Positions 11,429-59,321 of a stretch of 64,000 bases of DNA are shown piece by piece. This stretch comes from Serratia marcescens (GTDB taxonomy: Bacteria > Pseudomonadota > Gammaproteobacteria > Enterobacterales > Enterobacteriaceae), in NCBI RefSeq assembly GCF_006715005.1, contig NZ_VFMJ01000001.1:186001-250000 (forward strand), written 5' to 3'. Position numbers and translations under genes: made by a program. Each line of letters starts with the position of its first letter. Position 1 is the stretch's first letter. Under the pieces are notes generated by a model. The model ran no database searches and was not told where the DNA came from. It saw nothing but the letters and a program-made list of their open reading frames with translations.

Positions 11429-11539
11429 GATACCGGGCGAAAAAGGCGTCTTCACGTTCTCATTATTTACGGTATCAACTCTTTTTCATGTATTCACTCT
11501 GCTGGGTGAGTATTAATATATGCGCAGGATGCGTCCATT

Positions 11540-12205
11540 ATGTATAAACGTCCCTTGCTTTTTATCAGCTACACGATTGTTATTATTTTTTCCTCTTCTT
11601 TTTTGACTGCGTTTTATTTTAAACATTACGTCATGCAATCGCCGGAGGCAGAAAGCCTGACTTTTATCTCCCCGGAAAAAATAGAACAAAGCCCGTTGCA
11701 AGACGATAATACCATTGTCGAAGTCTTCTCTTACGCCTGCCACTATTGTGAAGTCAACGAAAGCGGCGTGGCCGAACTGGAAAAAAGTTTACCGGCGGGA
11801 GCCAAATTGGTGCGCTTGCACCTTAGCGACGACAGTCAGGCTGGCATGGCGGCCTTTGCGCCCCTGTTCGCCACGCTGACGGTCATGGGGATCGAAGTAC
11901 AGCATCGTCCCGCCGCTTATCGCGCCATTATCAAAGAAAACCTCAACCTGGCGGATGACAAACAGCTCAGCGCCTGGCTGACGGCCAACGGTATCGATGA
12001 GGCCGCCTATCAGCAGGCCAGAGAGTCAGAGCGGGTCAAAGAGCTGTTGGCGTATATGACGGCAGTGAGCCGTTATTACCAGGTCAACGCGACCCCCAGC
12101 TTTATCGTCAACCGTAAATGGCTGGCATTGCAAGATCGCGACTTTTCCGCTTTCAGTCAGCAGCTGTTGTCGCTGTTGCAGCACGATAAGCCGCTGGCCC
12201 CCTGA
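11540..12205 (+). CDS. Membrane-anchored DsbA-like thiol oxidoreductase
   Basis: A 221-residue thioredoxin-fold protein. Residues 5-25 form one hydrophobic anchor, placing the rest in the periplasm. VEVFSYACHYCEVNE carries the active site C67-H-Y-C70, and NATPSFIVN supplies the cis-proline loop. CHYC is close to the CPHC of DsbA, implying an oxidase or isomerase. The middle helical insert is shorter than in DsbA. It lies between the peptide gene and the exporters and overlaps the next gene by one base, so its substrate is probably the four-cysteine peptide. Confidence 0.8.
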   Translation: MYKRPLLFISYTIVIIFSSSFLTAFYFKHYVMQSPEAESLTFISPEKIEQSPLQDDNTIVEVFSYACHYCEVNESGVAELEKSLPAGAKLVRLHLSDDSQAGMAAFAPLFATLTVMGIEVQHRPAAYRAIIKENLNLADDKQLSAWLTANGIDEAAYQQARESERVKELLAYMTAVSRYYQVNATPSFIVNRKWLALQDRDFSAFSQQLLSLLQHDKPLAP

Positions 12206-13149: not shown

Positions 13150-13168
13150 GTCAGGGATATCACTACGT

Positions 13169-19781: not shown

Positions 19782-19783
19782 GC

Positions 19784-21037
19784 ATGGAGAAAAAAAGACG
19801 AGTGGTGGTCACCGGTTACGGTGCCGTCACCGCGCTGGGAGGCAACGCGCAGCAAAACTGGCAGGCTATCATGGCCAGCCGCTTGGCCTATCGTTATCAC
19901 GATAAATCGGCGGCGGGGATCCACGCGCGCTTTTTTGCTTTGCTGGAGTCCGAACCGCTGCTGGAGGGCGTTGCCGCGCGGGTAAGCCGCCGGCTGCCCA
20001 GATTCGCCAGGTTGGCGCTTGCCGCCGCCGCGGAGGCGATCGAAATGGCGTTTTCATCCTCTTACAGGGGGCCTGCGCACTTTTATTCGTCGTTGGAGTG
20101 CGGGGCGATTATCGGCAGCGGCTGGGGAGGGCAGGATGAGATCATGCAAAACAATGCGGACTATCTGCAATCCGGATTGGGCCAGCTGTTTGGCTGTTTT
20201 CACGCGATGCCCAATATCGCGACCGCCATCTGTGGCCAGCATTGGTTGCTACGGGGTTATCAAGGCTCACCGGCGGCGGCCTGTGCGACCGGCGGCATCG
20301 CGATTGGCGATGCGTTTGAGGCGATTCGCAGCGGCCGCGCCGCAATGATGCTGGCCGGCGCGTCGGAGTCGCTGAGCGGCAACGGTGCGATCTGGAATAT
20401 GGATGCGTTGCGTTTGTTGAGCCGGGAGCAGAAGGATATTACCAAAGCCAGTTGCCCGTTCAGCAGGGATCGCAACGGTTTCGTCCTGGCGGAAGGGGCC
20501 GCCGTGTTATGCCTTGAGGAACGGGAGGCGGCTTTAGCGCGTGGTGCGACGATCCTGGGGGAGATCAAAGGGTACGGCAATTTTTCAGACGCTTTCGATC
20601 TTACCGCGCCATCGAAGGATCCTCAGGCCAAGGTGAAAACGCTGCAACGGGCCTTGGAGCAGGCGGGGCTCGGCAGCCATGAAATCGACTATATCAATGC
20701 GCATGGCACCTCTACGCTGCAAAACGATGTGAGCGAAACCGAGGCGATCAAGGCGGCACTGGGGCGCGATGCTTATCGCACGCCGATTTCCAGCACGAAA
20801 TCCTATACCGGGCACCTGCTTGGCGCATCCGGTAGCTTTGAGGCCATCGTCTGTCTGCAAGCATTACAGCAGCAAGTGATGCCGGCAACCTGCCATTTGC
20901 ACGCCGCCGATCCCGAATGTGATCTCGATTATATTCGCGAAGGGCATCGGCACGGTCGTTTGCGTCATGTCATGAGCCTCAGCTTCGGTTTTGGCGGTGC
21001 CAATGCGGCGCTGGTATTTGGTTATCACAATGAATAA
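19784..21037 (+). CDS. FabF-type beta-ketoacyl-ACP synthase
   Basis: A 417-residue condensing enzyme with an intact active site: C167 in PAAACATGGIAIGDAF, H307 in INAHGTSTLQND, K339 and H344 in SSTKSYTGHLLGASG. The C-terminal glycine loop is FGFGGANAALVFG. It joins an acyl chain to malonyl-ACP. The start is the ATG three bases after the channel stop; a much longer open frame lies inside the channel gene and is an artefact. It is followed by an ACP gene. With only one KS and no reductase here, housekeeping Fab enzymes would complete the chain. Probably supplies the acyl group for the operon's acyltransferase. Confidence 0.9.
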   Translation: MEKKRRVVVTGYGAVTALGGNAQQNWQAIMASRLAYRYHDKSAAGIHARFFALLESEPLLEGVAARVSRRLPRFARLALAAAAEAIEMAFSSSYRGPAHFYSSLECGAIIGSGWGGQDEIMQNNADYLQSGLGQLFGCFHAMPNIATAICGQHWLLRGYQGSPAAACATGGIAIGDAFEAIRSGRAAMMLAGASESLSGNGAIWNMDALRLLSREQKDITKASCPFSRDRNGFVLAEGAAVLCLEEREAALARGATILGEIKGYGNFSDAFDLTAPSKDPQAKVKTLQRALEQAGLGSHEIDYINAHGTSTLQNDVSETEAIKAALGRDAYRTPISSTKSYTGHLLGASGSFEAIVCLQALQQQVMPATCHLHAADPECDLDYIREGHRHGRLRHVMSLSFGFGGANAALVFGYHNE

Positions 21038-46245: not shown

Positions 46246-47508
46246 ATGCCTCGCTCGTTGCACGACACCTCCACCGCGTTGAATGCCGCTAACCTGCTGG
46301 CCTTGCCGCAGCGTTTCGGTTGCCCGGTCTGGGCCTATGATGCGAACATCATCAGCCAGCGCATCGCTCAACTGCGCCACTTCGACACTATCCGTTTCGC
46401 ACAGAAGGCCTGTTCGAATATTCATATTTTGCGCTTGATGCGCGAGCAGGGCGTGAAGGTGGATTCGGTGTCGCTGGGCGAGATCGAACGGGCGCTGCAG
46501 GCCGGTTTTCAACCGGGCGGCGAACCGAGTGAGATCGTGTTTACGGCAGACGTGTTGGATCACGCCACGCTGGCGCGCGTCAGCGAATTGAAAATCCCGG
46601 TCAACGCCGGTTCCATCGACATGCTGGATCAGCTCGGCCAGGTTTCCGCAGGGCATCCGGTGTGGCTGCGCATTAACCCGGGGTTTGGCCACGGCCACAG
46701 CCAGAAAACCAACACCGGCGGCGAGAACAGCAAGCACGGCATCTGGTATGCCGACCTGCCGCAGGCGGTGGAGAAGATCCGCCGCTACGGCCTAAAACTG
46801 ATCGGCGTACACATGCATATCGGTTCCGGCGTCGATTATCAGCATCTGGAGCGGGTCTGCGATGCGATGGTGCAGCAGGTGATCGATCTCGGTCATGACA
46901 TCAGCGCCATTTCCGCCGGCGGTGGCCTGTCTATTCCCTATCAGTACGGCGAAGAGGCGATCGATACCGAACACTATTTCGGTTTGTGGAACCGGGCGCG
47001 TGAACGCATCGCCGCGCATCTGGGGCATCCGGTACAGCTGGAGATCGAACCCGGGCGTTTCCTGATGGCGGAAGCGGGCGTCTTGGTGGCCGAGGTGCGA
47101 GCGGTAAAAGACATGGGCAGCCGCCACTTTGTGCTGGTGGATGCCGGTTTTAACGATCTGATGCGTCCGGCAATGTATGGCAGCTATCATCATATTTCGC
47201 TGTTGCCGGCCGATGGGCGAGATACTTCGGGGCAAGCGCTGCGCGAAACGGTGATCGCCGGGCCGCTGTGTGAATCCGGCGACGTGTTCACCCAGCAGGC
47301 GGGCGGCGGCGTGGAAACCCGCGAACTGCCGCCGGTCCAGATCGGCGATTATCTGGTGTTCCACGACACCGGCGCCTACGGCGCGTCGATGTCCTCCAAC
47401 TACAACAGCCGTCCGCTGTTGCCGGAGGTGCTGTTCGAAAACGGCGAACCTCGCCTGATCCGCCGCCGCCAAACCATCGAAGAACTGATCGCGCTGGAGC
47501 TTATCTGA
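46246..47508 (+). CDS. lysA: Diaminopimelate decarboxylase
   Basis: A 420-residue PLP enzyme converting meso-diaminopimelate to lysine. The PLP lysine lies in TIRFAQKACSNIHILRLMRE, and the substrate loop is INPGFGHGHSQKTNTGGENS with KHGIW. LIGVHMHIGSGVDYQHLERV, AGGGLSIPY, EIEPGRFLMAEAG, PLCESGDVFTQQ and DTGAYGASMSSNYNSRPL follow. Length and motifs equal E. coli LysA. In E. coli lysA is followed by convergent galR; here about 10.5 kb intervene. Confidence 0.96.
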   Translation: MPRSLHDTSTALNAANLLALPQRFGCPVWAYDANIISQRIAQLRHFDTIRFAQKACSNIHILRLMREQGVKVDSVSLGEIERALQAGFQPGGEPSEIVFTADVLDHATLARVSELKIPVNAGSIDMLDQLGQVSAGHPVWLRINPGFGHGHSQKTNTGGENSKHGIWYADLPQAVEKIRRYGLKLIGVHMHIGSGVDYQHLERVCDAMVQQVIDLGHDISAISAGGGLSIPYQYGEEAIDTEHYFGLWNRARERIAAHLGHPVQLEIEPGRFLMAEAGVLVAEVRAVKDMGSRHFVLVDAGFNDLMRPAMYGSYHHISLLPADGRDTSGQALRETVIAGPLCESGDVFTQQAGGGVETRELPPVQIGDYLVFHDTGAYGASMSSNYNSRPLLPEVLFENGEPRLIRRRQTIEELIALELI

Positions 47509-47515: not shown

Positions 47516-47537
47516 GCGGGCGTGCTGCGCCCGCTTT
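47516..47537 (+). terminator. lysA terminator
   Basis: Arms GCGGGCG (47516-47522) and CGCCCGC (47528-47534) then TTTA, 8 bases after the stop. Confidence 0.65.
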
Positions 47538-47940
47538 ACAACGTCATGCGGCGGTGCTGGTCGGTTAGGTAATTGCACCTTTAGCGACAGCGTGTCGCCT
47601 ACGGGATTGCCAGGTTTCATCATAGAGTTATCTCTCTTCATCGACGCCTTCTTGGCATAGATAAATATATTTCGCTATCTATATATTAACCAATGCTTCG
47701 TTAAGCATTGGTTAATTATTTCATACCGATTAAACTTTGGCTTTCTTTATGTTTTTTTATCATTAACAAATGCAATCAATCTGTTTGTTTTTCGAACTCC
47801 TTGGTTTTTGTTGAGTGATGAGATTAATAAAACGTTAAATTGGTATCGAAATGGTAAAAGAATTTACTTGATTTTTGTTTTGGCGGATATATTCTTCATA
47901 CCACAAAAAAGTTAGCCTAAAACAATATGGAGTAAGAGCA
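47538..47940. other. AT-rich region at the left edge of the polyketide insertion
   Basis: About 400 bases whose composition drops from GC-rich to AT-rich near 47600, matching a junction between core and acquired DNA. It contains a 14-base-pair hairpin (47685-47716). No gene seen. GGAG at 47928-47931 is the ribosome site of the next gene. Confidence 0.6.
47685..47716. terminator. Long perfect hairpin upstream of the radical SAM gene
   Basis: ATTAACCAATGCTT (47685-47698) pairs with AAGCATTGGTTAAT (47703-47716) around a CGTT loop, then TATTTC. It may be a terminator, attenuator or remnant of the insertion junction. Confidence 0.55.
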
Positions 47941-49341
47941 ATGTACAAAAATCGCTGCTATATGCCATTCATTCTGTACCCACCCGATATGTATGATGTC
48001 TCAGATGGCGAGTCTGAGAATAATCTTATTAAATCGCTGTCGCTTGAAAGCGATGGGACTGATTTTGTTATGTATCTTTCAGTCCCTTATTGCCGAGTGT
48101 GTTGTAAAGCGTGCCCATACTTTGTTGACCTGCTGCCGATGAATAAAGGAAAGTCGCAAGATTTATTGGACCGCTATGTTGACGCTTTGGTTCTGGATTT
48201 GAAGCGCCATGCCGCAACACGTCGCTGGGGCAATGCGCGGTTGAGAGGGGTATACATCGGAGGCGGAACTGGTTCTCTGTTGGAAATTACCCATCTCGAT
48301 AAAATTCTCACAACGTTAACTCGATACTTTAATTTGGCGAAGGACTGTGAAATTACCCTGGAAGGGAATGCTAAGGATTTCACCAAAGAGAAAGCGGTTT
48401 ATATTGCTGATTCGATTATTAATCGGATTTCTCTGGGGGCTCAATCTTTCCAACCTGAAGTATTACGCACCGTCGGTTCACCGCATAAAGCGCAGCAGAC
48501 GATTGACTCCATCCGCATGTTGCAAGATGCCGGATTAGAACATATCCAACTCGATATGATGTATAACATGCCGGGGCATACGCTAGCGCATTGGGAAAAA
48601 GATTTTAAAGTACTCCATGAATTGGGTATTAAACATCTGACGACCTATTTGTATCGCATTACTCCGGGCACGCGGCAAGAAGCGTTGATTAAAGCCGGCA
48701 AGGTGGCGCCTGTCGCCGATGCGGAAAGCGTGTTGGTCAAGGATATGCAAGCGATGATCGGCCAGTTCGCCGCGGAGGCGGGTATGCGCAACTACATGCA
48801 CGAACACTACGCGCTGCCGGGTTTTGAATCCAAATACAATCACTGGACGATGAAGGAGTGTGTCGACGCGTTGGGAATCGGCCCAGGGGCATACAGCTTT
48901 ATAAACCAGCGGCGTACTGGGATTTCGAAGAGCGTGGATCGCTATATCGACGCCGTGCAGAATGGGGACAGCACCTTCACTACTGCCAGCATTCAGCTTA
49001 CGCCACAGCTAAGTCGTCAGCGTTATATGATTTTCAATCTGCTGTACTATCGAATTGATAAGGCGCATTACCGCAAGGCGTGGGGAACGGAATGCCGGGA
49101 GGATTTCAACGCGATTATTAACGGCCTTATTCTGGATGGCTTCATGCAGGATAATGGGGCGGAGCTCTTGCTTACGCTAAAAGGGAAGTCATGGTTGCAA
49201 AATATCATGTTGGAATTCTTCGACGATAGCATGTGGGAAAACTCTCAGGCCTTGAGGCAACAGCAAAGCTCTTGGGCTATGAATAATCACATGATCGATA
49301 TTAGTGCTGCAAAGAAAAGTTTCTGGTTAGACAAAATATAA
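47941..49341 (+). CDS. HemN-like radical SAM enzyme
   Basis: A 466-residue radical SAM protein. The iron-sulfur site is CxxxCxxC at C51, C55 and C58 in SVPYCRVCCKACPYF, an order typical of the HemN family. GVYIGGGTGSLLEI, CEITLEGNAKDFT, RISLGAQSFQ and IQLDMMYNMPGHT mark the barrel, and a HemN C-terminal domain follows. HemN-like proteins in natural-product clusters can be C-methyltransferases or cyclopropanases rather than haem enzymes. It opens the polyketide-like cluster. The gene is more AT-rich than its surroundings, a sign of acquisition. The frame from 47875 has no ribosome site. Confidence 0.82.
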   Translation: MYKNRCYMPFILYPPDMYDVSDGESENNLIKSLSLESDGTDFVMYLSVPYCRVCCKACPYFVDLLPMNKGKSQDLLDRYVDALVLDLKRHAATRRWGNARLRGVYIGGGTGSLLEITHLDKILTTLTRYFNLAKDCEITLEGNAKDFTKEKAVYIADSIINRISLGAQSFQPEVLRTVGSPHKAQQTIDSIRMLQDAGLEHIQLDMMYNMPGHTLAHWEKDFKVLHELGIKHLTTYLYRITPGTRQEALIKAGKVAPVADAESVLVKDMQAMIGQFAAEAGMRNYMHEHYALPGFESKYNHWTMKECVDALGIGPGAYSFINQRRTGISKSVDRYIDAVQNGDSTFTTASIQLTPQLSRQRYMIFNLLYYRIDKAHYRKAWGTECREDFNAIINGLILDGFMQDNGAELLLTLKGKSWLQNIMLEFFDDSMWENSQALRQQQSSWAMNNHMIDISAAKKSFWLDKI

Positions 49342-49366
49342 TTAACTGCTCAGGGATTAACTTATC

Positions 49367-50092
49367 ATGTTGCATGATTGTGGTGTTCGGCGTGCCGCTT
49401 TGGACGTTACTAATACATTATTTGAATTAGGCGTTATAGACTCTAATAATGACAGTGTGGAAATGGAACAGGATATTCGTCAGGGGCTTGGTTTGGATAG
49501 CCAAGAGTTAATGACCCTGGTGGAGATTGTTTCTTCGTTAGGGCTTTCCGCGGCTCCGTTGGATGAGGATAATGTCACAACGCTTGCCGACTTGGTTAAC
49601 TACCTTGCCGAACATCGGGATCGCTGGCTGCATACCGATGTTCCATTCGTATTGCAAGGCAGCACGATTATATCCCAGGATATAGAGACGGTTTTTTCTT
49701 ATATTCGGGATTATCGGAAGTGGCCGGAGATGTTGGCGCACGTCACTAAAATTGAAGAAGATATGGATGATGGGCGGCTGCAAAGTTTCATTATGCATAT
49801 TGAGGAGCTGGGCACTAAACAAGATTACTTTGTTAAGTCCTGGCGTTATGTCAATGACGAGCATCGAATCATCGATTTTTCCCAACCGTTGCCGCCCAAA
49901 GGATTCCGCAGCCACAAGGGCGGCTGGCGCTTCCAACCACTTGCCGATGGACGTACCCGTTTAATCAGTTATCACGGTTTCTCACTGCATGACGATATTC
50001 AGGCGGATGAAGCCATTATTTTGATTAGAAAGCACATTCATGCCGCGCTGAGCACGTGGGCGCGCCTTGGCAACGGTGAGTGCAATGTCTGA
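49367..50092 (+). CDS. ACP-cyclase fusion protein
   Basis: A 241-residue two-domain protein. Residues about 10-85 form an acyl carrier domain with S45 in LGLDSQELMTLVEIVSS and a helix III region DEDNVTTLADLVNYLAEH. From about 95 a START-like (SRPBCC) aromatase/cyclase domain runs to the end: FVLQGSTIISQDIETVFSYI, RDYRKWPEMLAHVTKIEED, then WRYVNDEHRIIDFSQPLPPK and GGWRFQPLADGRTRLISYHG. In type II polyketide systems these are separate proteins, so the fusion ties the growing chain to its cyclase. It overlaps the next gene by 8 bases. Confidence 0.8.
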   Translation: MLHDCGVRRAALDVTNTLFELGVIDSNNDSVEMEQDIRQGLGLDSQELMTLVEIVSSLGLSAAPLDEDNVTTLADLVNYLAEHRDRWLHTDVPFVLQGSTIISQDIETVFSYIRDYRKWPEMLAHVTKIEEDMDDGRLQSFIMHIEELGTKQDYFVKSWRYVNDEHRIIDFSQPLPPKGFRSHKGGWRFQPLADGRTRLISYHGFSLHDDIQADEAIILIRKHIHAALSTWARLGNGECNV

Positions 50093-50525
50093 GCTTTGTC
50101 TCAATCTGCTGACCAAACAGCGGGTGCGGCACGGCGTTGAACCGCTGGCGCTCATCTGGTCGCTGGATCATTGGCTCGGCAGCCTGGAACGGGTTTGCGG
50201 CATTCAACGGATTGAAGAAAGCGCTGTCAGGCAGCGCTTTATCCTGCATTTCGATGCTGACAGACCTGAGGCGGACCGGGTCGAGGTGGAACGAACACGT
50301 ACGGATTCTCGGATATCCGTGATTCACCTCATTCCACCACCGGGTATTCAGGCGCTGTCGGCCGATTGGTGGACGGAAGCGGAGCACCCGGGGATTTTGT
50401 TTGTCTGCCGGCGCATGCTGATAGATGAAGCGGCGTATACCCCCACGATGGCGCGCAAGATGTTTGGTTTGCTGCGGGAAAATGTCGGCAAATTGATGGA
50501 GCGCCCGTCATGCGACAGCGAATAG
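50085..50525 (+). CDS. SRPBCC-like protein, probable polyketide cyclase
   Basis: A 146-residue protein. It begins MSELCLNLLTKQRVRHGVEP, has LIWSLDHWLGSLERVCGI and a strand-rich middle VRQRFILHFDADRPEADRVE, then WWTEAEHPGILFVCRRMLID and a long C-terminal helix MFGLLRENVGKLMER. The layout suits a small START-like fold, but similarity is weak. The ATG at 50085 overlaps the previous stop region, showing coupling; the next gene starts 16 bases inside this one. Confidence 0.55.
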   Translation: MSELCLNLLTKQRVRHGVEPLALIWSLDHWLGSLERVCGIQRIEESAVRQRFILHFDADRPEADRVEVERTRTDSRISVIHLIPPPGIQALSADWWTEAEHPGILFVCRRMLIDEAAYTPTMARKMFGLLRENVGKLMERPSCDSE

Positions 50526-51436
50526 CAATTGTAGGCGGCGGGGTGACTGCCGGCATGGCCGCGCGCTTGCTCGCCCCTTTGGGCGAAACGACGTTGATTC
50601 AGCCGGGAACCCCTCACGCGAGCGGCATGCCTGAAATTGTGCCGCGTCGGCCATTTTTCAGCGCGCTGGGGGAACGCGGGGAAGATGAATGGGTTGCCGC
50701 AATGGCACCGTCTCTCACCGAGGTGAGTTGGCGTAAGGGAGCCCGCGTGCGCACAGTTCGGTTGGCCTCTACCGAGGATTTCTTGGTTTACGACAAAACG
50801 CGATTGGCGAGGTTACTGCTTGATGGCGCATCGGTGGCGCGCCGGATAACCGGAGAGGTCGGTGAGATCGCCGAATTGCAGGGGTTTGACCGGGTCTTCG
50901 ATTGTCGCGGAGCCAGAGCGGTGAAAAACGATCCAGCTTATCAGCATCAGGTGGTTCATTCCGCGCGCACGGCTTGCCGTTATCTCGTCGTTTCTGTCTC
51001 ACCTAAAGGTCATGACGGCGTCATGAGGTTTTGGGCGGAAACGGCGCCTGGTGGCAACAGGCGCACTTTCTTTCGGGTGCCGGTGGGTAGAGGGCGTGTA
51101 TCGTTGGGGTGCTCTTGTTTCCCGGATGACTTGCTGTCCGATGACGAACTGCATGCGGCGTTAGAACAGCAAGAAGGCGCAAGGGTGTCACCTGAGGCCG
51201 TGCTGTTTAGCGGCGCTGCTGTTCCGCAACCACTCGCCATGCATTGCCGCATTCCGCATGTCACCCCGTTGGGCGACGCCGGCGCAACCCCGTGTCCGTT
51301 GACTGAATATGGCGTGTTGAAAGCGCTTTCGCAGATTATGGCTTTGGCCGGCGGCGAGTCGCTGCCGGAGGCTGCGCTGCGCCGTACCCCGAATGAAGAA
51401 GTCGATCCGCATTTACCGCAGGAGCTGTTTTCATGA
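50510..51436 (+). CDS. FAD-dependent oxidoreductase
   Basis: A 308-residue flavoprotein. The dinucleotide fold is RIAIVGGGVTAGMAARLLAP at the N-terminus, and DRVFDCRGARAV marks the second FAD contact. HVTPLGDAGATPCPLTEYGV is the GD motif of the hydroxylase family (GDAA..P..G.G). It is shorter than most aromatic hydroxylases, around 400 residues, so part of the substrate domain is reduced. A role in oxidising or hydroxylating the aromatic product is inferred from context. Confidence 0.7.
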   Translation: MRQRIAIVGGGVTAGMAARLLAPLGETTLIQPGTPHASGMPEIVPRRPFFSALGERGEDEWVAAMAPSLTEVSWRKGARVRTVRLASTEDFLVYDKTRLARLLLDGASVARRITGEVGEIAELQGFDRVFDCRGARAVKNDPAYQHQVVHSARTACRYLVVSVSPKGHDGVMRFWAETAPGGNRRTFFRVPVGRGRVSLGCSCFPDDLLSDDELHAALEQQEGARVSPEAVLFSGAAVPQPLAMHCRIPHVTPLGDAGATPCPLTEYGVLKALSQIMALAGGESLPEAALRRTPNEEVDPHLPQELFS

Positions 51437-52170
51437 AACCTTTCACCTGTATTTCCACGGCGCTCTATCCCGGTAACGGTGAACCTATCTCGATTCAGGT
51501 TGATACGTTGGATCACGTTGCCGGCGTAGCTCATCTGTGCCGTGGCTTCGACATCACACCGGAAGATTGGCCGGATGGCTACGGTATTTCTAATGAGATC
51601 GTCACGCTTTCGACCCATCAGGGCACGCATATTGATGCGCCACTGCATTACTCGCCAGATGGCTTCGACATCGCGGCGGCAGATATTGATAACTTTATGG
51701 GCCAGGCCGTTATTTTCACCGATCGCATCTCTTCGGGGCATGAAGTTGAGCTCGACTGGCGAGAGTATCTGGCGCGTCTCGACCGGTACGCAGGGCAGGC
51801 GCGTGCGGTCTTTTTCATTACCGGCGCTTACGAACGCTATGGCGAATCAAGTTATTTCACCGAGTTCAAAGGTGTGCCGGCCCCCTATGTCGAGGCGGCA
51901 TTGGATCGGGGATACACCCTGATTGGCACCGATGCGTTCAGTCTCGATCCCCCTTTCGCGGTGATGTCGCGCGAATTTGTCGCGACTCGGGATCGTTCGG
52001 TCTTATGGCCTGCGCATGTGCTGGGCCGTCAACGTCCGTATTTCCAGATTGAGCGGCTGGCAAACCTCAAGGATTTTGAGGCGGCCCGGTTGGTCGAATT
52101 TATCGCATTACCCATCAAACTGCACTGCGGCGCCGCTTGGGCGCGCGCCGTTGCAAGGATCATAGAATGA
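51433..52170 (+). CDS. PF04199-type (KynB-like) cyclase
   Basis: A 245-residue member of the cyclase family that includes kynurenine formamidase and late ring cyclases of aromatic polyketides. The metal motif is complete: H62, H66, D68 and H72 in STHQGTHIDAPLHYSP. Later features are FFITGAYERYGESSYFTEF and IGTDAFSLDPPF. In the anthracycline pathway homologues such as DpsY act in ring closure. It overlaps neighbours by 4 bases on both sides. Confidence 0.8.
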   Translation: MKPFTCISTALYPGNGEPISIQVDTLDHVAGVAHLCRGFDITPEDWPDGYGISNEIVTLSTHQGTHIDAPLHYSPDGFDIAAADIDNFMGQAVIFTDRISSGHEVELDWREYLARLDRYAGQARAVFFITGAYERYGESSYFTEFKGVPAPYVEAALDRGYTLIGTDAFSLDPPFAVMSREFVATRDRSVLWPAHVLGRQRPYFQIERLANLKDFEAARLVEFIALPIKLHCGAAWARAVARIIE

Positions 52171-53315
52171 GCAAGCTGTACATCACCAATGCGGCCGCGC
52201 TAAGCCCGCTCGGCGGCAGTTTAAATGAGATTTGGCGGCAGATCTTGCAAGGTACCGTCGCCTACGGCCATGCGCGCTTGCCCGGCCGGCGCGATTTTTT
52301 TGTCGCCGAAACGGTGCCAGGCAGTGGTTCTGACATCGTCGCCTACGCTTCGTTGTTTAAAGAGGCGATCCGCCGCCTCGTCGAGCAACTGGAAATTGAA
52401 GCGCCTGTTGATGCCATCTTCTTCGCCAGCGCAGTTGGCAATCTGGCTGAGGTGGAAAACGATATTTACGCCGACCGGCCGGTTTCTCTTGAGCAGTTGG
52501 ATTTTTCCTCGATGGAGACGGTATTTGCGGAAACGGCAGCCTATGGTGCCGGGACAAAGTTCGTCTGCGTTCCTACCGGATGCTGCGCGGGATTGCAGGC
52601 GATCGGCTTGGCGAAAACCACCATGCCTCGTCTTGGTCTGAAGCGGGCCCTCATCATGTCACTGGATTTCGGCTTGACGCCACTGGCACTGGAGGCGTTC
52701 AACAAAATCAATGCGACGCGCACTTATGACTCCGCCATGTCGGGTAGCCCGTCACGCCCATTCTGCCATGACAGGGACGGTTTTTTATTTGCCGATGGCG
52801 GCGGCGCGATCTTGGTGACGACAGAGGAACCGACGCCGTCTGTACCGCATATTGCCGGCTATGGCTGCGTATCAAGCGCATACCATATGACCGATATTGC
52901 AACCGACGGCAGTTCCATTCGTCAGAGCATTGAACGGGCGATATGGGACGCCGACATCACGGGCGCGGCGCTCGACCATGTGAATCTGCACGCTTCAGGA
53001 ACCCAGCAAAACGATCAGGCTGAATACCAAGCCCTTGTCGATGTCATTGGCCCAAATCTGCCGCCGATCACCGCTTTTAAAGGGAATCATGGCCATGCGT
53101 TAGGTGGCGCCAATATGATCGAGATCGCTTTGGCCTGGAAGATGATGACCACCGGCCTATTGCCTCCCACGGCGGAATCGCTGCCGGTTGATGCCTACGA
53201 AGCCGTTCCTCCGCGTGAGCAGGCGGTTTCCGCCCCGATGGCCTCGCTGCTGAAAACGGCCAGCGGCTTTTCGGGTATTCACGCCGCAATGATTATGGAG
53301 AACGGCAATGTCTGA
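52167..53315 (+). CDS. Ketosynthase (KS-alpha-like)
   Basis: A 382-residue condensing enzyme. Active-site residues are present: C139 in VPTGCCAGLQAIGLA, H275 in NLHASGTQQNDQAEY, K305 and H310 in KGNHGHALGGANMIE; MSLDFGLTPLALEAFNKINA and PFCHDRDGFLFADGGGAILV also fit. It differs much from FabF and from the ketosynthase at 19.8 kb. The following gene is a half-length chain-length-factor-like protein, suggesting a minimal synthase made of KS, partner and fused ACP. Confidence 0.82.
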   Translation: MSKLYITNAAALSPLGGSLNEIWRQILQGTVAYGHARLPGRRDFFVAETVPGSGSDIVAYASLFKEAIRRLVEQLEIEAPVDAIFFASAVGNLAEVENDIYADRPVSLEQLDFSSMETVFAETAAYGAGTKFVCVPTGCCAGLQAIGLAKTTMPRLGLKRALIMSLDFGLTPLALEAFNKINATRTYDSAMSGSPSRPFCHDRDGFLFADGGGAILVTTEEPTPSVPHIAGYGCVSSAYHMTDIATDGSSIRQSIERAIWDADITGAALDHVNLHASGTQQNDQAEYQALVDVIGPNLPPITAFKGNHGHALGGANMIEIALAWKMMTTGLLPPTAESLPVDAYEAVPPREQAVSAPMASLLKTASGFSGIHAAMIMENGNV

Positions 53316-53961
53316 GACTTTTAGCTGTGTGCTGCATCACGATGTTGTCGAACTGAGCGAGAGCGCCACTGGAACGGTAACGCATGTTGCGCGAAAGGAT
53401 TTCGAGGCCCTGATCCCTCGACGGCAGCGGGGTAAGCTGCCCGCCGCGACGCGCATGGCCGGCGGGGTTTGGCAACACTATCGCCTTGACCAGCGTTTGG
53501 CTAGGTTGGATGCCGATCCGAAAGAGACGCCGCTGTTGATCCTCAACCGCTACGCCAATTGGGACTATGTGGCCGACATGATGTGCGACGACGTAGCCGT
53601 CACGCTGGAAAGCGTTAACAGCTATGTCGCCACCGCGTGGTTCCCCGCGAGCCTGCAGGGGTATCTGACGATAGAACATGGCAATCGCGCCGAAGCACTC
53701 ACGTTGGCGACTAAAGACATCGATATGCAGGCCGCCGCGATTGATGGTCTGTTCCTGCGTGACTTGCAGAACAACAAGATCGGAGCGGTCGTGGTGGGGA
53801 CTTTTGAAGCGATACCTGAAAAAGTCGGTCGTCATGACATTGTCCAGGGCAAACCGGCCGTTTTCGGCGCGTTCAGCATTTTCTCTTCCCAAGACAGTGA
53901 AACCGCGATTGTCGCGGCCTTAACCACTCATCAGGAGCTTTATCATCATGACAACCGCTAA
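53308..53961 (+). CDS. Half-length chain-length-factor-like ketosynthase partner
   Basis: A 217-residue protein. LLILNRYANWDYVADMMCDD, ESVNSYVATAWFPASLQGYL and TIEHGNRAEALTLATKDID follow the pattern of N-terminal ketosynthase domains called chain-length factors, where the region around the missing nucleophile reads S-V-x-N. No Cys nucleophile or C-terminal ketosynthase half is present. It starts 8 bases inside the ketosynthase gene and probably forms a heterodimer with it. The assignment is moderate. Confidence 0.6.
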   Translation: MSETFSCVLHHDVVELSESATGTVTHVARKDFEALIPRRQRGKLPAATRMAGGVWQHYRLDQRLARLDADPKETPLLILNRYANWDYVADMMCDDVAVTLESVNSYVATAWFPASLQGYLTIEHGNRAEALTLATKDIDMQAAAIDGLFLRDLQNNKIGAVVVGTFEAIPEKVGRHDIVQGKPAVFGAFSIFSSQDSETAIVAALTTHQELYHHDNR

Positions 53962-54415
53962 CGGCAACGCATTCATTTTCAACCACTCCGTCGAAATTCC
54001 CGTAACCGCAGCCCCCCATGTGTGGGCCGCCTGGAACGAATTGGCGAATTGGCACCGCTGGGATGCTTCATTGCGGGGGACTGATGCGGCGGAGAATGGC
54101 CTGGTTTTAGGAAAGCGCTTCGCGGTGCTACCGAACGGGGGCCCTGGCGCGATCGCGGTTAATGTGACCGCATTGGTTGAGGGTTCGCATTTCACTACGA
54201 CGGCCAATAGCCCGATGGGATTGCTCTCTTTCGGCCATACGCTGACCCTGAGTGAGGATCGGCAAAGCGTTCAGTTGCTCCATTCAATCTGCGCTATTCC
54301 GGGGGAGAACGGGAGCGCATTGCCGCCACCCCTGTTGCAAAAATTGCGCGCCGATGTCATTGACAGCGTGCAGCGTCTCGCTGCTTTCGCCGTCCAGGAG
54401 GAGCCGCTGGCATGA
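53948..54415 (+). CDS. SRPBCC-family protein, probable cyclase
   Basis: A 155-residue START-like protein: FNHSVEIPVTAAPHVWAAWN, ELANWHRWDASLRG, NGLVLGKRFAVLPNGG, then a C-terminal helix LLQKLRADVIDSVQRLAAFA. This is the polyketide cyclase/dehydrase fold used to guide aromatic ring formation. It overlaps the preceding gene by 14 bases and the EVE-domain gene by 4. Confidence 0.75.
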   Translation: MTTANGNAFIFNHSVEIPVTAAPHVWAAWNELANWHRWDASLRGTDAAENGLVLGKRFAVLPNGGPGAIAVNVTALVEGSHFTTTANSPMGLLSFGHTLTLSEDRQSVQLLHSICAIPGENGSALPPPLLQKLRADVIDSVQRLAAFAVQEEPLA

Positions 54416-54828
54416 AACATTGGATTGCCGTTATATCGCAGGCTCACGCTCGTATTGCCGCTGAGTCGGGATTTCTGCAAGTCTGCCATGGCAAGGCCGG
54501 GCCGCTGCGGAAAACCCGCTCCGGCGACGAGGTGTTTATTTATTGCCCCCGCAGCGAGATGGGGGGCGGGGATGTGTTGAAAACCGTCGAGTTTCACTGT
54601 GTTTTCCAAAACGACGACGTGTATCAGGTGGAACAGTTTCCCGGTTTCACCCCACACCGTAAAGACGTTGTTTTCAATAGACACTTTCAGCCAGTGGTGC
54701 TGAAAGAGGTCGCGGGACTGGAATTCACCGCAGATTCTCACTGGGGAATGTTGGCGCGTCGCGGATTTTTCGAGATCGGCCCTCATGATGCCGCCTTGCT
54801 GAGAAAGGCGATGCAGGGGGACAAATGA
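54412..54828 (+). CDS. EVE-domain protein
   Basis: A 138-residue protein made of one EVE domain: MKHWIAVISQAHARIAAESG, GFLQVCHGKAGPLRKTRSGD, VYQVEQFPGFTPHRKDVVF and HWGMLARRGFFEIGPHDAAL. This closely follows the family pattern W.AV.S..H...G...GF.QV.HGK. EVE domains belong to the PUA fold and some bind modified DNA bases. A PUA-like protein inside a polyketide operon is unexpected. It may protect DNA or RNA against the product, or regulate it (inference). Confidence 0.78.
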   Translation: MKHWIAVISQAHARIAAESGFLQVCHGKAGPLRKTRSGDEVFIYCPRSEMGGGDVLKTVEFHCVFQNDDVYQVEQFPGFTPHRKDVVFNRHFQPVVLKEVAGLEFTADSHWGMLARRGFFEIGPHDAALLRKAMQGDK

Positions 54829-55202
54829 CGGCTTCTTCATCCATCGTTGTGGTGTTCGATCAGCTCACTCGGGAGGATTTTTTTCGCCGTCTGGAGTGGC
54901 CGGCTTTAGTACGTGCTTGGTCAAAAACCATCGCCTGGCATCCCCTCTCCGCTCACAAAGTGCTGCTGGAGTTGGCCGGACTGGACGGCATTGATCGCCT
55001 GACCATTACCCGTCGGCGGCGTGGCGATCGCATTTTCATCGGTGCGCGCGACAGTAAAGGCGTGCTGCTGCAATCCGGCGTTTGGGAATATGAGCGCGAA
55101 AGCGGGTTGTGCGTGTGCTATCGCCGCGTTTATCGGCCTGAACTGGTCACGGTCTTGCGGGAGCGCCTGGCTGATTTTGTGTGTGCAACCTTTATGAAGT
55201 GA
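54825..55202 (+). CDS. Small protein of unknown family in the polyketide cluster
   Basis: A 125-residue protein. It has VVVFDQLTREDFFRRLEWPA, ITRRRRGDRIFIGARDSKGV and a C-terminal helix VTVLRERLADFVCATFMK. The strand-rich middle and terminal helix suggest a reduced START-like fold, but I do not recognise it. It overlaps the EVE gene by 4 bases, so it belongs to the operon. Confidence 0.55.
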   Translation: MTASSSIVVVFDQLTREDFFRRLEWPALVRAWSKTIAWHPLSAHKVLLELAGLDGIDRLTITRRRRGDRIFIGARDSKGVLLQSGVWEYERESGLCVCYRRVYRPELVTVLRERLADFVCATFMK

Positions 55203-55211
55203 GAACGTCCG

Positions 55212-56384
55212 ATGTCAAAAAACGCCATTTCAGCCGTGATGATGACGGTGCTTGCCGCCACGGCATTTTCTGCAGGCCTGTCCGAATTTATCGTCATTGG
55301 TCTGTTGGGACAAATGGCCGGTGAGCTGGATGCGCCACTGTCGCAGATGGGATTGCTGGTCACCGCCTATGCGGCAGGAATTGCGCTTGGCGCACCGTTG
55401 CTGACGCGAATGACGCTATCTTTACACGCGCGTTCTCTGGCCGTCGGCTTGATGTTGCTTTTTGCCGTCGTGAGCGCCGCTTCGGCGATGGCGTCCAGCC
55501 TGGCTTCTTTGTTGGCGTTACGTATTGTCGCCGGCGCGATACATGGGGTCTATTTCAGCATCGCCTCCGCCAGTTTATCGATGATCTTCGACGAGCGGCG
55601 TGCGCCGATAGCCATCGCCTTGATGTTTTCCGGTCTGACGCTGGCGATGGTGCTGGGCGTCCCCTTAGGGATGCTGGCGACGGCGGATTATGGTTGGCAG
55701 GCGCCGTTCCAGGCGATAGCGGTGGTGGCATGTGTAAGCGGCGGTTTGTTGCAGTTCGTTTTGCCGGAAAGTTTTGGGCCGGCGCTGCCGGTACCCCGAG
55801 GTAGCGCGCTGCTGCGAAGCACGCTGTTCAATCCGGCGTTAATCCGACCGTACTGTTTCACCGTATTGGCATTTGGCGGCGGTTTTGTCTTTTTCTCGTA
55901 TGTCGAACCTTGGCTTGCTCATGTGGCCGCATTGGATGTCGGCTCGGTCGCGCTCGTTCTGGCGATGGTCGGAGGCGGCTCTTTAGTGGGCAACATCCTT
56001 GGGGGCATACTGCCGGGTAAGCTCGGTTTGCAAAGGGCGCTGATTATCGCCGTGTTGCTGCAGTGTGTCGGGTTGGCCGGGCTCTTTTGGAGCGCCGGCT
56101 CATTCAACCCCATCGTTTTCTTATTGCTCTGGAGTTTTGGCGCGTTCGCGACGGCACCAATGGTGCAGACCTGGGCGATTGTCGAGGCGGAGCAAGCCAA
56201 TGCGCGTTTATCGGCTAGCTTTAATGTTTCGGCGTTTAATTTTGGGCTCGCTCTCAGTTCTTTTATCGCCACACGCCAGGTGGCGCTGAACGGCATGGCG
56301 TATCTACCGGTGACGGCTGCGCTGATGGTTGCATTGGCGCTGCCATTCTGTTTTCTCCGTACGCGCGGCGTGCCGGCGAAATGA
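55212..56384 (+). CDS. MFS exporter (DHA1 type)
   Basis: A 390-residue drug/proton antiporter-like carrier with 12 segments. FIVIGLLGQMAGELDAPLSQ with MGLLVTAYAAGIALGAPLLT is the start typical of AraJ/YdhP-like DHA1 proteins, and RIVAGAIHGVYFSIASASLS and GVPLGMLATADYGWQAPFQA contain motif C-like residues. It probably exports the cluster product and gives self-resistance. Confidence 0.82.
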   Translation: MSKNAISAVMMTVLAATAFSAGLSEFIVIGLLGQMAGELDAPLSQMGLLVTAYAAGIALGAPLLTRMTLSLHARSLAVGLMLLFAVVSAASAMASSLASLLALRIVAGAIHGVYFSIASASLSMIFDERRAPIAIALMFSGLTLAMVLGVPLGMLATADYGWQAPFQAIAVVACVSGGLLQFVLPESFGPALPVPRGSALLRSTLFNPALIRPYCFTVLAFGGGFVFFSYVEPWLAHVAALDVGSVALVLAMVGGGSLVGNILGGILPGKLGLQRALIIAVLLQCVGLAGLFWSAGSFNPIVFLLLWSFGAFATAPMVQTWAIVEAEQANARLSASFNVSAFNFGLALSSFIATRQVALNGMAYLPVTAALMVALALPFCFLRTRGVPAK

Positions 56385-56419
56385 GGCTTTTTTAACGTTT
56401 AACAGCAAGGAGTATGGAT

Positions 56420-56866
56420 ATGTTCACATGGACTTACAGCGAAAAAGTGGCAACCCAGGCAACGCCGGAGCAGATTTGGGCGATGTGGCAAGACGCCGCC
56501 TCTTGGCCCTGTTGGGACAGTGAGTTGGAGTGGGTGAGGTTGGAAGGAGAGTTCATTGTTGGCACCGTTGGCCGGATGAAACCCACCAGCGGCCCGGAGG
56601 TGAAATTCCTCCTCAGCGATATTGTGCCTCTGCGATCTTTCTCTGATGTGGCGCAGTTACCCCTGACGCGCCTGGCGTTCGATCATGAGTATATTTCCCC
56701 TCAGGGGAAGGACGAGACAGCGCAAATCTGCCACTCGGTGACCATGTCGGGCCTGTTGGCGCCCGTGTTTGGGCGTCTGATTGGCGGGAAGATAAAAACC
56801 CATTTGCGGCAGGCGATGCAGGAACTGAGTCAGCGGGCGTTAACCGAGGATAAGACATTGAGGTAA
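56420..56866 (+). CDS. SRPBCC-family protein, probable cyclase/dehydrase
   Basis: A 148-residue START-like protein. It has FTWTYSEKVATQATPEQIWA, MWQDAASWPCWDSELEWVRL and a helix GRLIGGKIKTHLRQAMQELS at the C-terminus, the clear polyketide cyclase/dehydrase pattern. AAGGAG lies 7 bases before the ATG at 56420. It is separated from the exporter by only 35 bases. Confidence 0.78.
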   Translation: MFTWTYSEKVATQATPEQIWAMWQDAASWPCWDSELEWVRLEGEFIVGTVGRMKPTSGPEVKFLLSDIVPLRSFSDVAQLPLTRLAFDHEYISPQGKDETAQICHSVTMSGLLAPVFGRLIGGKIKTHLRQAMQELSQRALTEDKTLR

Positions 56867-56905
56867 ACTCTCCCTCTAATTTTAAGATTTAAAGGGAGAT
56901 AAGAC

Positions 56906-57346
56906 ATGATGACCGAAGATGATGCAAGGCCGACATTCTCACACCGTTCGCCGATGGAAAGCCCTGGTTTCAGATTCTGGCAAACGTTCTTGCAGTGGCA
57001 AAGGCAGATTGATATTGCCCTGGCTCCCTATCATCTGACGCAGCAGAGCTTCAGCATTCTGGCGGTGATTGGCTGGTTGTCAAAGCAGAATTATCAGGCG
57101 ACGCAGGATGGCACGGTCAGGCAAAAAATGATCGTTGAAAAATCCGGTGTGCAGAAGATGCAGATCTCTCTGTTATTACGCAAGTTGGAACAGGGGCAGC
57201 TGATCACGGTGCAGCCTTTTTTACTGGATCGGCGAGAGCGGTTGATAACCTTGACGCCGCACGGATTGCGAACGTTGAAAGAGGCTGTGCCGTTGGTGGA
57301 AAAGGAAGACAAGCGGTTTTTAGCCAAAGTTCATATTGAAGACTGA
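56906..57346 (+). CDS. MarR-family regulator
   Basis: A 146-residue regulator with a winged helix: LAPYHLTQQSFSILAVIGWL, QKMIVEKSGVQKMQISLLLR and KLEQGQLITVQPFLLDRRER then LITLTPHG. AGGGAG precedes the ATG. As the last plus-strand gene next to an exporter, it probably represses the cluster until its product or a related phenolic compound appears. Its end overlaps the convergent transferase gene by 16 bases. Confidence 0.78.
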   Translation: MMTEDDARPTFSHRSPMESPGFRFWQTFLQWQRQIDIALAPYHLTQQSFSILAVIGWLSKQNYQATQDGTVRQKMIVEKSGVQKMQISLLLRKLEQGQLITVQPFLLDRRERLITLTPHGLRTLKEAVPLVEKEDKRFLAKVHIED

Positions 57347-58071
57347 CATAACCAGGTCAGCATGAAATCGTTCATCTGAGCATAGCTGAGTTCGAAACAT
57401 TGGCCGCTGTCCAAACCGGGACCTAAATTTCGGGTCAGCTTGAGAGACAGAACGCCGTGCTGCGGTGGGGCCGGGGCTTCTGCGGCAGCATAGCCTGGGT
57501 TGACGTTCATTTTACTGCAAAGGGCTTTGAACAGCGTTTCCTTCGCGGAGAACAGCACGGTTGCGCCGAGCTGTTGCTGCGAAGCCGCCAGGTCATGCAG
57601 CCAGCGTTGCTCTGCCTGTGTCGCCACCCGGTTGATGACCGATTGCAGAGCGATCGGTGTTAACCGGCGTTCGATATCCACCCCCGTGTATGCCCCTTCC
57701 GGCCCCGCCAGCAGTAAAATATTGTCTGACGAATGCGAGAGTGAGCCGCTGACGCCGCTCGGCAAGTGCGGTGCGCCGGATGGCATTCGGCCTGGCGGTG
57801 TCTGTAGGCCGAATGCCAGCATCATCAGGTTTCGCCCAGCCCAATATTCTGCCTGGCGCTTGATCGGCCTCTTTTCTAATCCGGCGAGACGCAACGCCTC
57901 TTGCGTTTGAGCCGGGCGAAAGGAAAAGCGTCGCGGATCATACCGCGCATGCCACATGACGAGCTCAGGTGCCGGTTCGGCGTATCGAACCGTGCGGAGG
58001 ATCGAACCGTCCTGAAGCGGTGTTTCGAACCAAAACAGCGTTTCTGCGGAGGAACGGCCGTCGGTTTCCAT
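57331..58071 (-). CDS. EntD/Sfp-type phosphopantetheinyl transferase
   Basis: A 246-residue transferase. The metal and CoA motifs are GAYTGVDIERRLTPI and TVLFSAKETLFKALC, and the preceding KRQAEYWAGRNLMMLAFG and GSLSHSSDNILLL fit the EntD branch. It converts apo-carrier proteins to the holo form with the CoA arm. The natural client is the ACP-cyclase fusion, and possibly the ACP at 21 kb. ATG at 58071 is preferred over an upstream GTG. It is on the strand opposite to the cluster, next to galR. Confidence 0.85.
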   Translation of the reverse strand: METDGRSSAETLFWFETPLQDGSILRTVRYAEPAPELVMWHARYDPRRFSFRPAQTQEALRLAGLEKRPIKRQAEYWAGRNLMMLAFGLQTPPGRMPSGAPHLPSGVSGSLSHSSDNILLLAGPEGAYTGVDIERRLTPIALQSVINRVATQAEQRWLHDLAASQQQLGATVLFSAKETLFKALCSKMNVNPGYAAAEAPAPPQHGVLSLKLTRNLGPGLDSGQCFELSYAQMNDFMLTWLCQSSI

Positions 58072-58087
58072 CACGTTTAATCGCCTG

Positions 58088-59101
58088 CTAGTCGTGCGCG
58101 TTGTTGAGGGTGGCGACCGAGTGGCGGCGCACCAGCGTCGGGCTGAACATGTTGGTGATTTCCGGCAGCGGTTGCCGGTTGGCCAGCGCCAGGGCCAGCT
58201 CTGCCGCTTGGGTGGCCATCGCTACGATAGGGTAGCGAATGGTGGTCAGGCGCGGCCGCAGGTAGCGTGAAATTAACACGTCGTCGAAACCGATCAGCGA
58301 AATTTCCCCCGGCACATCGACGCTGTTGTCGCTCAGCACCGACAGCGCGCCGGCGGCCATTGGGTCGTTGTAGCAGGTAATGGCGGAGAACGAACGGCCG
58401 CGGCCGAGCAATTCGGTCATCGCCTGTTCGCCGCCGATCTCGTCCGGTTCGCCGTAGGCGATCAGCTTTTCATCCACCGCAATGCCGTGCTCCTGCAGCG
58501 CGTCGAGATAGCCTTGCAGCCGGTCGGTGGCGTCGGAAATCTGGTGGGTGGAGCAGATGATGGCGATGCGCTGATGCCCTTGCTGGATCAGATGACGGGT
58601 CGCCAGCCAGGCGCCGTAGCGATCGTCGAGCGCCACGCAGCGCGTTTCAAAACCCGGCAGCGTGCGGTTGATCAGCACCATGCCCGGGATCTGTTGCATC
58701 CAGCCGCAAAGTTCCTGATCGCTCAGCCTTTTGGCGTGCACCACCAGCGCTTCGCAGCGATGCCGCACCAGCTGTTCAATCGCCTGGCGCTCTTTTTCCG
58801 CGTCGTGGTAACCGTTGCCAATCAGCAGAAAATTGTGGGTGGCGTAGGCTACCTGCTCGACCGCTTTGACCATCGCGCCGAAGAAGGGATCGGAAACGTC
58901 GGAGACGATCAGGCCCAGCGTCTCGGTGGATTGCTGCGCCAGCGCCCGAGCGTTGGCGTTAGGGTGATACTGCAGTTGTTCCATGGCGGCCAGCACCGCG
59001 GTGCGCGACCCTTCGCTGGCCTTGGGGGAATGGTTTATCACGCGGGATACCGTGGCCACGGAAACACCCGCCAGCCTGGCAACATCCTTTATCGTAGCCA
59101 T
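58088..59101 (-). CDS. galR: Galactose repressor GalR
   Basis: A 337-residue LacI-family repressor matching E. coli GalR over its whole length: MATIKDVARLAGVSVATVSR, RALAQQSTETLGLIVSDVSD then PFFGAMVKAVEQVAY, HRCEALVVHAKRL, GEPDEIGGEQAMTELLGRGR and SPTLVRRHSVATLNN. It controls galactose uptake and use. The frame continues to 59113, but MATIKD at 59101 is the conserved start. It is separated from lysA by the polyketide-like cluster. Confidence 0.93.
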   Translation of the reverse strand: MATIKDVARLAGVSVATVSRVINHSPKASEGSRTAVLAAMEQLQYHPNANARALAQQSTETLGLIVSDVSDPFFGAMVKAVEQVAYATHNFLLIGNGYHDAEKERQAIEQLVRHRCEALVVHAKRLSDQELCGWMQQIPGMVLINRTLPGFETRCVALDDRYGAWLATRHLIQQGHQRIAIICSTHQISDATDRLQGYLDALQEHGIAVDEKLIAYGEPDEIGGEQAMTELLGRGRSFSAITCYNDPMAAGALSVLSDNSVDVPGEISLIGFDDVLISRYLRPRLTTIRYPIVAMATQAAELALALANRQPLPEITNMFSPTLVRRHSVATLNNAHD

Positions 59102-59321
59102 ATCAGTCAACACATCCTGGGTAATCGCTTACATCCCCCAGTTTTGCGGAAAACCACCGGGGCTGCAAGCGGTCTCGTGCGCAACTTGTGGTGGCCGTTG
59201 CAGAATCTCTTCGAGTCTGCGCGCATAACCACCGGCCGCCGAACGATAGCGCAATTTGTACGTTGGCACTGGCGACGGGCTGAGGTAACGTCTGTGCACT
59301 CCGATTTGCGCCGAGAATGCC

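Follow-up and report, generated by a model that had tools for sequence, protein, structure and literature searches.

The stretch of Serratia marcescens DNA analyzed here (64,000 nucleotides, positions 186,001 to 250,000 of contig NZ_VFMJ01000001.1, assembly GCF_006715005.1; referred to as the window and numbered from its first letter) carries 14 genes, at 47941-58074, that occupy the interval between lysA and galR. These genes probably constitute a mobile, compact type II polyketide synthase (PKS) cluster making an unreduced aromatic polyketide, which would be C-methylated by a radical S-adenosylmethionine (SAM) enzyme and exported. A preliminary description of this DNA, made from its letters alone, had placed a compact polyketide-like cluster here, and lysA (ending at 47508) and galR (58088) do enclose it. 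Its members include a ketosynthase (KS), a half-length chain-length factor (CLF), an acyl carrier protein (ACP) fused to a START aromatase/cyclase (ACP-START) and a PF04199 cyclase. Thirteen of the 14 genes are found in the same order in Rosenbergiella collisarenosi 8.8A (contig NZ_JABBFP010000002.1, L023; 42-85% protein identity) and on an IncFII plasmid of Mixta intestinalis (NZ_CP028272.1, L021; 36-74%). Both copies have the half CLF and the ACP-START fusion, as in Serratia, but they lie at other genomic sites and have no match to marR, the only gene private to the Serratia copy.

By profile and tree, the KS belongs to the type II PKS ketosynthases. A KS profile of four rows (the Staphylococcus KS included) scores 261 bits against AntD, 217 against the actinorhodin KS and 203 against the best FabF, and the nearest solved structures of the KS and CLF are AntD and AntE of Photorhabdus. 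In a first KS tree, seven type II PKS rows, three of them from this cluster, are split from eight other KSs (FabF/FabB-type and unclassified; 100/99.9). A second tree, which adds AntD and the KS of an ant-like cluster (L075, see below) and leaves out FabB, Paenibacillus and the second KS of the window, splits five type II PKS rows from nine others (100/99). Cys139, His275, Lys305 and His310, which we take to be the catalytic set, are invariant across four KS sequences.

The predicted CLF partner of this KS is a half-length homologue of AntE. Its profile finds AntE alone among the solved structures at E <= 0.1 (E 1.5e-9), in agreement with the half CLF of the preliminary description, and profile-profile comparison links it to the CLFs of Staphylococcus (P 3e-8) and Azospirillum (P 8e-7), with no clear match to a Streptomyces CLF (P 0.008). 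As the alignment is read, the sequence stops shortly past the strand that comes after the nucleophile position. Its length is 217, 214 and 216 aa in the three syntenic clusters, compared with 325 aa on a Staphylococcus plasmid (L024) and 371-381 aa in a Photorhabdus-type ant cluster (L076) and on an Azospirillum plasmid (L025). A stepwise shrinkage of the CLF was dropped in part as an explanation, as the 271-aa frame of L075 is interrupted, with the remainder in another frame, and so is not a natural size step. A halved CLF apparently has a precedent in another lineage: the aryl polyene CLF ApeC is described as roughly half as large as its KS and as containing a single thiolase domain (PMC8358021).

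The ACP and the aromatase/cyclase expected of a type II PKS are found in a single polypeptide. The START part supplies the aromatase/cyclase: it matches Polyketide_cyc2 (E 1e-8), and BexL and StfQ aromatase/cyclases are among the matches of ACP-START to solved structures. On plasmids, 30 of 34 ACP-START matches are in Streptomyces, and 21 of the 26 Streptomyces matches listed are annotated as aromatase/cyclase. The fused ACP part is recognized from weak matches, both below cut-off (PP-binding, E 0.012, and a further ACP family, E 0.003), together with an Asp44-Ser45 pair that is invariant despite these scores. The PF04199 cyclase is 36% identical over 208 columns to a cyclase of the Photorhabdus ant cluster that is AntC by gene order. 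At least three further START-like proteins had been proposed; the number is about right (ST1, ST2 and ST5), with unequal support. ST2 falls just short of the curated cut-off for Polyketide_cyc2 (27.0 bits versus 27.4, E 6e-6), and is related to ST5 at the profile level (P 5e-8). ST1, which has no Pfam family and no profile match to ACP-START, ST2 or ST5, is a probable divergent START protein via the Staphylococcus cluster only, where its profile matches a START protein (P 1.5e-5). Two other small genes do not belong with these. One encodes an EVE-domain protein (PF01878, E 7e-8; also NF002616, E 1e-31, below cut-off), and the other a 125-aa protein (ST4) that shows no START relation by profile comparison, no Pfam or PHROG match and a best PDB match of E 0.65, and is 75 and 64% identical in Rosenbergiella and the Mixta plasmid. 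Five cluster proteins are without a PHROG match.

The radical SAM protein is predicted to be a HemN-like (class C) methyltransferase. Its nearest solved structure is NocN (E 2e-24), named as a radical SAM methyltransferase, followed by HemN (E 4e-22). It is 84, 74 and 40% identical to the proteins of Rosenbergiella, the Mixta plasmid and L075, and the cysteines of its CxxxCxxC motif (C51, C55 and C58) are invariant, also in the L075 relative. The 40% identity to the latter extends over 462 residues, compared with 22-27% to the three other matches in its own genome. As a ChuW/HutW haem enzyme it falls short, with 205.7 bits against an equivalog cut-off of 400. The FAD protein has no Pfam family. 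Its N-terminus has a profile match to tryptophan halogenases (E 9e-4), G9, G11 and L254-G-D-A257 are invariant, and only 29 columns align with the Staphylococcus FAD enzyme, a clear member of the Trp-halogenase family. NCBIfam matches of the major facilitator superfamily (MFS) protein, Cmx/AraJ-like, are below cut-off. Pfam finds no ketoreductase (KR) or acyltransferase among the 14 proteins, as had been noted from reading, and likewise no AMP-ligase, dehydratase (DH) or lyase family.

The sequence itself shows which genes are present, their homology and conservation, selection, the site and an antitoxin stub, while every catalytic step and the product are inferred. The cluster phosphopantetheinyl transferase (PPTase) would prime the ACP domain of ACP-START, housekeeping FabD would load malonate onto it, and the KS with the half-length CLF would build a short poly-beta-ketone. 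Since the ACP and a START aromatase/cyclase share one polypeptide, closure of the first ring would take place there, and as no ketoreductase acts beforehand, the aromatic product would be unreduced. Closure and dehydration of further rings may fall to the AntC-like PF04199 cyclase together with the free START proteins; the HemN-like enzyme would add one carbon, most likely as an aromatic-ring C-methyl, and the FAD protein would carry out an oxidation. The MFS protein is predicted to export the product and MarR to repress the operon. The cluster would have entered this Serratia at lysA-galR, replacing a toxin-antitoxin pair. By analogy with ant and coelulatin, an unreduced, C-methylated aromatic would result. 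In the ant system, as described in PMC12186476, a gene elsewhere than in the cluster supplies the malonyl transacylase, and the ACP-bound chain made by KS-CLF is an octaketide. AntB has been suggested to prime the ACP, the shunt products SEK34 or SEK4/SEK4b arise without AntC or AntA, and the ant PKS proteins work in E. coli (PMC6638757). The HemN-like CoeI is reported as required for C2 modification of the type II PKS anthraquinone coelulatin (PMC9714029).

Sequence comparison indicates that the cluster is horizontally acquired and mobile, and that it sits where a toxin-antitoxin pair was, the pair having been lost at insertion or shortly before. The genus sample comprises 30 genomes including that of the window, one per species. 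lysA is present in 28 of these (own included), leaving 27 others to compare, and the interval between lysA and a LacI-family gene is readable in 25; a locus with a broken lysA (L055) and one with no LacI-family match within 1.5 kb (L054) are left out. A toxin-antitoxin pair occupies 18 of the 25 intervals (spacing 844-907 bp), one holds an antitoxin alone by the search used, and six are nearly empty (64-91 bp). The cluster is found in none. The same genes at this site in all related species had been named as the finding that would speak against an acquired cluster; this is not what the genus shows, as no KS above 31% identity is found in the 29 genus-mates outside the window's own copy. All 30 genomes do match the KS at E <= 1e-10, because of FabF/FabB-type enzymes. 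In a blastn comparison of the flanks with genus-mate loci, homology on the left stops at 47599 in 15 of 23 matched loci and at 47554-47594 in the other eight. On the right it begins at 58092 in all 11 matched loci, inside the last codons of galR, the C-terminus of which is unlike that of its relatives. By these edges the foreign DNA is 47600-58091, about 10.49 kb. The match to toxin-antitoxin loci continues from the end of lysA to 47599 (84-88% over 120 bases in the nearest six loci), where a decayed 3' remnant of the antitoxin gene persists; at the protein level the window retains no antitoxin match. Loss of the pair occurred elsewhere too, as four near-empty loci also match briefly into the antitoxin gene end (to 47554-47557). 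By sequence reading the pair is RelE/HigB-like. The lysA-galR interval (L029-L055) is a small hot spot of change in the genus, and in 14 of the 25 readable intervals the neighbor is a different LacI-family gene, 36-38% identical to galR.

Several observations weigh against an aromatic type II PKS of this kind. The KS is short (382 aa versus 421-435 in six other type II KSs compared), the three cluster KSs sit on a very long branch in the tree, and the window KS is not seen nested within the ant KSs. AlphaFold2 models, from two-row alignments, are too poor to rely on (pLDDT 49.5 for the CLF and 33 for the FAD protein). With the poor CLF model, Foldseek returns nothing at E <= 0.001 and ranks dihydrofolate reductase first, with PqsBC, AntE and the ishigamide CLF among the next. 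The profiles of ST1, ST2 and ST5 are not linked to the START of ACP-START, the assignment of the FAD oxidoreductase is weak, and the proposed pathway gives no step to ST4 or the EVE protein. None of the 14 proteins matches the ketoreductase, ligase or lyase genes of L076, and tblastn gives the PPTase no direct match in either L075 or L076.

The shortening of both KS and CLF, with PqsBC chains among the weak Foldseek matches, would also suit a pair that transfers acyl groups or performs one condensation in making a small metabolite other than a polyketide, like AmcF of cispentacin or PqsBC. The KS does score against AmcF, but at 89.2 bits it misses the equivalog cut-off of 325, FabF models reach 127 bits and AntD far more, and the match is unspecific, as the AntD-type KS of L076 also has it (165 bits). 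The aromatase/cyclase-type START domain and the AntC-like cyclase also speak against such a pair, which is thus improbable.

The nearest well-known relatives are the ant clusters. L076, the CLF of which is nearly identical to AntE of PDB 6SMO, shares with the window the PF04199 cyclase (36%), the KS (34% over 270 residues), the CLF (36% over 80 residues) and a START cyclase (24-25%); each cluster also contains a PPTase, but the two do not match directly. Judged from its gene order and sequence, L076 includes a ketoreductase, an AMP-ligase, the multi-START AntH, a lyase, a free ACP and a full-length CLF, which the window cluster lacks; conversely, nothing related to the EVE or FAD proteins is present in L076, nor was a radical SAM gene seen there. 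An ordinary but diverged ant-type anthraquinone cluster (AQ-256 family) would account for the homologues of AntC, AntD, AntE and the START cyclase, for a PPTase of the AntB superfamily, and for the radical SAM, START and EVE genes, which ant-like L075 also holds. However, homologues of the ketoreductase AntA, the ligase AntG and the lyase AntI are absent, loss of AntA in E. coli gave mainly SEK4/SEK4b (PMC6638757), and the fused ACP and halved CLF are unlike ant, which makes this explanation rather less credible still.

L075 (2195-18300 of a locus in G991, likely a genus-mate of Mixta) is a fuller ant-like cluster. Its order is short-chain dehydrogenase/reductase (SDR), PPTase, PF04199, radical SAM, START, EVE, KS, CLF, ACP, AMP-ligase, multi-START protein, hydrolase, MFS and SDR, with a LuxI-type gene preceding the cluster and a LuxR-type gene following it (ACP, ligase, MFS, second SDR and LuxR identified by sequence reading). 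The KS is 59% identical to that of Photorhabdus, and the CLF reading frame is interrupted. This order matches that of Photorhabdus ant, except that radical SAM, START and EVE are inserted between the PF04199 and KS genes, and the window cluster has the same trio (radical SAM 40%, EVE 30%) beside PF04199, KS and CLF. Unlike the window cluster, L075 retains a ketoreductase, ligase, multi-START protein, lyase-type hydrolase, free ACP and second SDR; the FAD, ST1, ST4, MFS and PPTase proteins of the window have no match in it. Descent of the window cluster from an ant-like cluster is suggested by this gene content, and not by the KS tree.

Two other systems are similar in part. The coelulatin cluster (coe, soil metagenome) likewise combines type II PKS genes with MarR, MFS and a HemN-like radical SAM C-methylase; from its description (PMC9714029), it differs in its full-length CLF, two ketoreductases, ligase and separate ACP. 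A Staphylococcus haemolyticus plasmid (NZ_CP120084.1, L024) also has a KS (29%), the shortened CLF, PF04199 (32%), START proteins, a FAD enzyme and MarR, with a separate ACP, a Trp-halogenase family FAD enzyme and a methyltransferase as its own features; no radical SAM or EVE match is found within the 17 kb examined. This cluster lies at 3215-12168, with merB and a recombinase nearby; the plasmid comes from a nasal swab of a dog. Type II PKS-like clusters are also seen on plasmids of Azospirillum (L025, 6877-15122) and Priestia (L026, 6506-18559).

A reducing system like that of aryl polyenes, where ApeO-ApeC shares a half-size CLF of one thiolase domain (PMC8358021), is very unlikely, as ketoreductase and dehydratase families are missing and the CLF profile finds AntE and no other solved chain at E <= 0.1, ApeC included. 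Assignments to aryl polyene, cispentacin and ordinary ant types were each rejected on class criteria (missing KR/DH; the AmcF cut-off; and missing KR/ligase/lyase, free ACP and full CLF, respectively).

As judged from comparison with its relatives, the cluster is conserved and under selection. Relative to Rosenbergiella, nonsynonymous differences per site are 0.09-0.39 and synonymous differences 0.70-0.87, and pN is much lower than pS in each of the 13 shared genes; no pN/pS ratio is quoted because synonymous sites are saturated in most genes. A decaying, non-functional cluster, as the reduced KS and CLF lengths and the AT-rich start could suggest, is hardly compatible with this, with the KS and CLF having the same sizes in three genera and with the absence of internal stops from all 14 genes.

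The cluster is also rare. A CLF protein search of the order sample, which spans many other families, finds only its own genome (1/394), and the CLF profile finds its own and G609 (E 3.9e-5) in the class sample (2/369). In the family sample (7/392) it finds its own, G1054 and its genus-mate G991, and four genomes of a further genus, among them G994 with the Photorhabdus-type ant cluster L076; G1054 is taken to be the Mixta intestinalis genome, as its match begins at the coordinate seen on the Mixta plasmid. Each species is represented by one genome in these samples. Of 72,556 plasmid records, five match the CLF at E <= 0.01, four of them distantly, and one matches the FAD protein. Scans of genome contigs recover one locus with the KS query, that of Rosenbergiella, and none with the CLF query; no match is found in E. 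coli genomes (megablast), and no relative in viral contigs with the KS alignment. The Rosenbergiella contig is 584 kb, with guaA near the cluster; two serine-recombinase/resolvase-like genes (by reading, L023 16438-20017) near this copy are a hint of a mobility route.

The claim that no known pathway has this gene set holds in that no identical characterised cluster, and no publication on this cluster in the open-access literature, was found. It does not hold for kinship, given Photorhabdus AntC/AntD/AntE and coelulatin (PMC9714029). Each component class has known kin, and the halved CLF, ACP-cyclase fusion and radical SAM/EVE are unusual in combination; in sequence terms the kind is known, with distant relatives making anthraquinone pigments, and the stripped-down version is new. 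A bolder proposal, conceivable but doubtful, is a minimal aromatic PKS of new build (KS, N-terminal-half CLF and ACP-cyclase fusion), the unreduced ring system of which would be rebuilt into a new scaffold class by the radical SAM enzyme inserting one carbon (as a C-methyl, a cyclopropane or a ring expansion), with the EVE and 125-aa proteins as new tailoring or ring-shaping enzymes. Type II PKSs are described as uncommon among Gram-negative bacteria (PMC12186476) and as poorly known in them (PMC13213394). The present cluster is very compact (10.5 kb, 14 genes) and is found on a plasmid and in two other genomes; side by side, ant, L075 and the window cluster may tell which CLF parts and accessory enzymes an aromatic PKS can lose.

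Table 1. Features of the lysA-galR region, in window coordinates.
Feature	Position	Strand	Basis or remark
lysA	46246-47508	+	left neighbor of cluster
Decayed 3' stub of antitoxin gene	47536-47599	-	homology to genus-mate toxin-antitoxin loci; stop codon placed by reading
14-bp inverted repeat, 4-nt loop	47685-47716	+	candidate lysA terminator or candidate MarR operator
Radical SAM protein, HemN/HutW-like, CxxxCxxC	47941-49341	+	PF04055 E 2e-13
ACP fused to START aromatase/cyclase (ACP-START)	49367-50092	+	Polyketide_cyc2 E 1e-8
ST1, probable divergent START protein	50067-50525	+	profile match only, no Pfam
FAD-type oxidoreductase, weakly flavin-halogenase-like	50510-51436	+	no Pfam; weak profile match
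PF04199 cyclase, AntC-like	51433-52170	+	PF04199 E 1e-14
KS, 382 aa	52167-53315	+	Pfam; profile, trees
Half-length CLF, N-terminal thiolase half	53308-53961	+	AntE profile match E 1.5e-9
ST2, START/Polyketide_cyc2 protein	53948-54415	+	Pfam E 6e-6, just under cut-off
EVE-domain protein	54412-54828	+	PF01878 E 7e-8
ST4, conserved 125-aa protein without family	54825-55202	+	conservation in two relatives
MFS exporter, Cmx/AraJ-like (predicted)	55212-56384	+	PF07690 E 1e-32
ST5, START protein	56414-56866	+	Polyketide_cyc2 E 1.4e-3, below cut-off
MarR-type regulator	56906-57346	+	PF01047 E 2e-4, below cut-off
PPTase	57331-58074	-	PF01648 E 9e-11, PF17837 E 7e-8
galR	58088-59113	-	right neighbor of cluster; gene end at 58088

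The 13 genes from radical SAM to marR are all on the forward strand, many with overlaps of a few bases, and the PPTase gene is on the reverse strand directly downstream of galR. Third-position GC is 0.50-0.70 in the 14 cluster genes versus 0.75 in lysA and 0.79 in galR. The AT-rich start seen on first reading is borne out: in 600-base windows GC is 0.41-0.51 at 47.8-50.2 kb versus 0.53-0.68 in the flanks (40.0-47.8 and 58.0-61.6 kb), the AT-rich part of the cluster being its first 2 kb. No tRNA is found in the window (ARAGORN) and no integrase or transposase family among the 14 proteins (Pfam). Terminator-like sites across the region number 12 versus 13.9 in shuffles, that is, no excess over chance, and a promoter scan of the region gives no signal above chance.

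Elsewhere in the window, 12884-21037 is a biosynthesis/export-like locus that by reading includes a C39-type ABC transporter, HlyD-type and MacB-type proteins, an outer-membrane factor and a ketosynthase. KS matches about 26 kb from lysA, the same distance as this second KS locus, are also present in three genomes (G012, G013 and G021).

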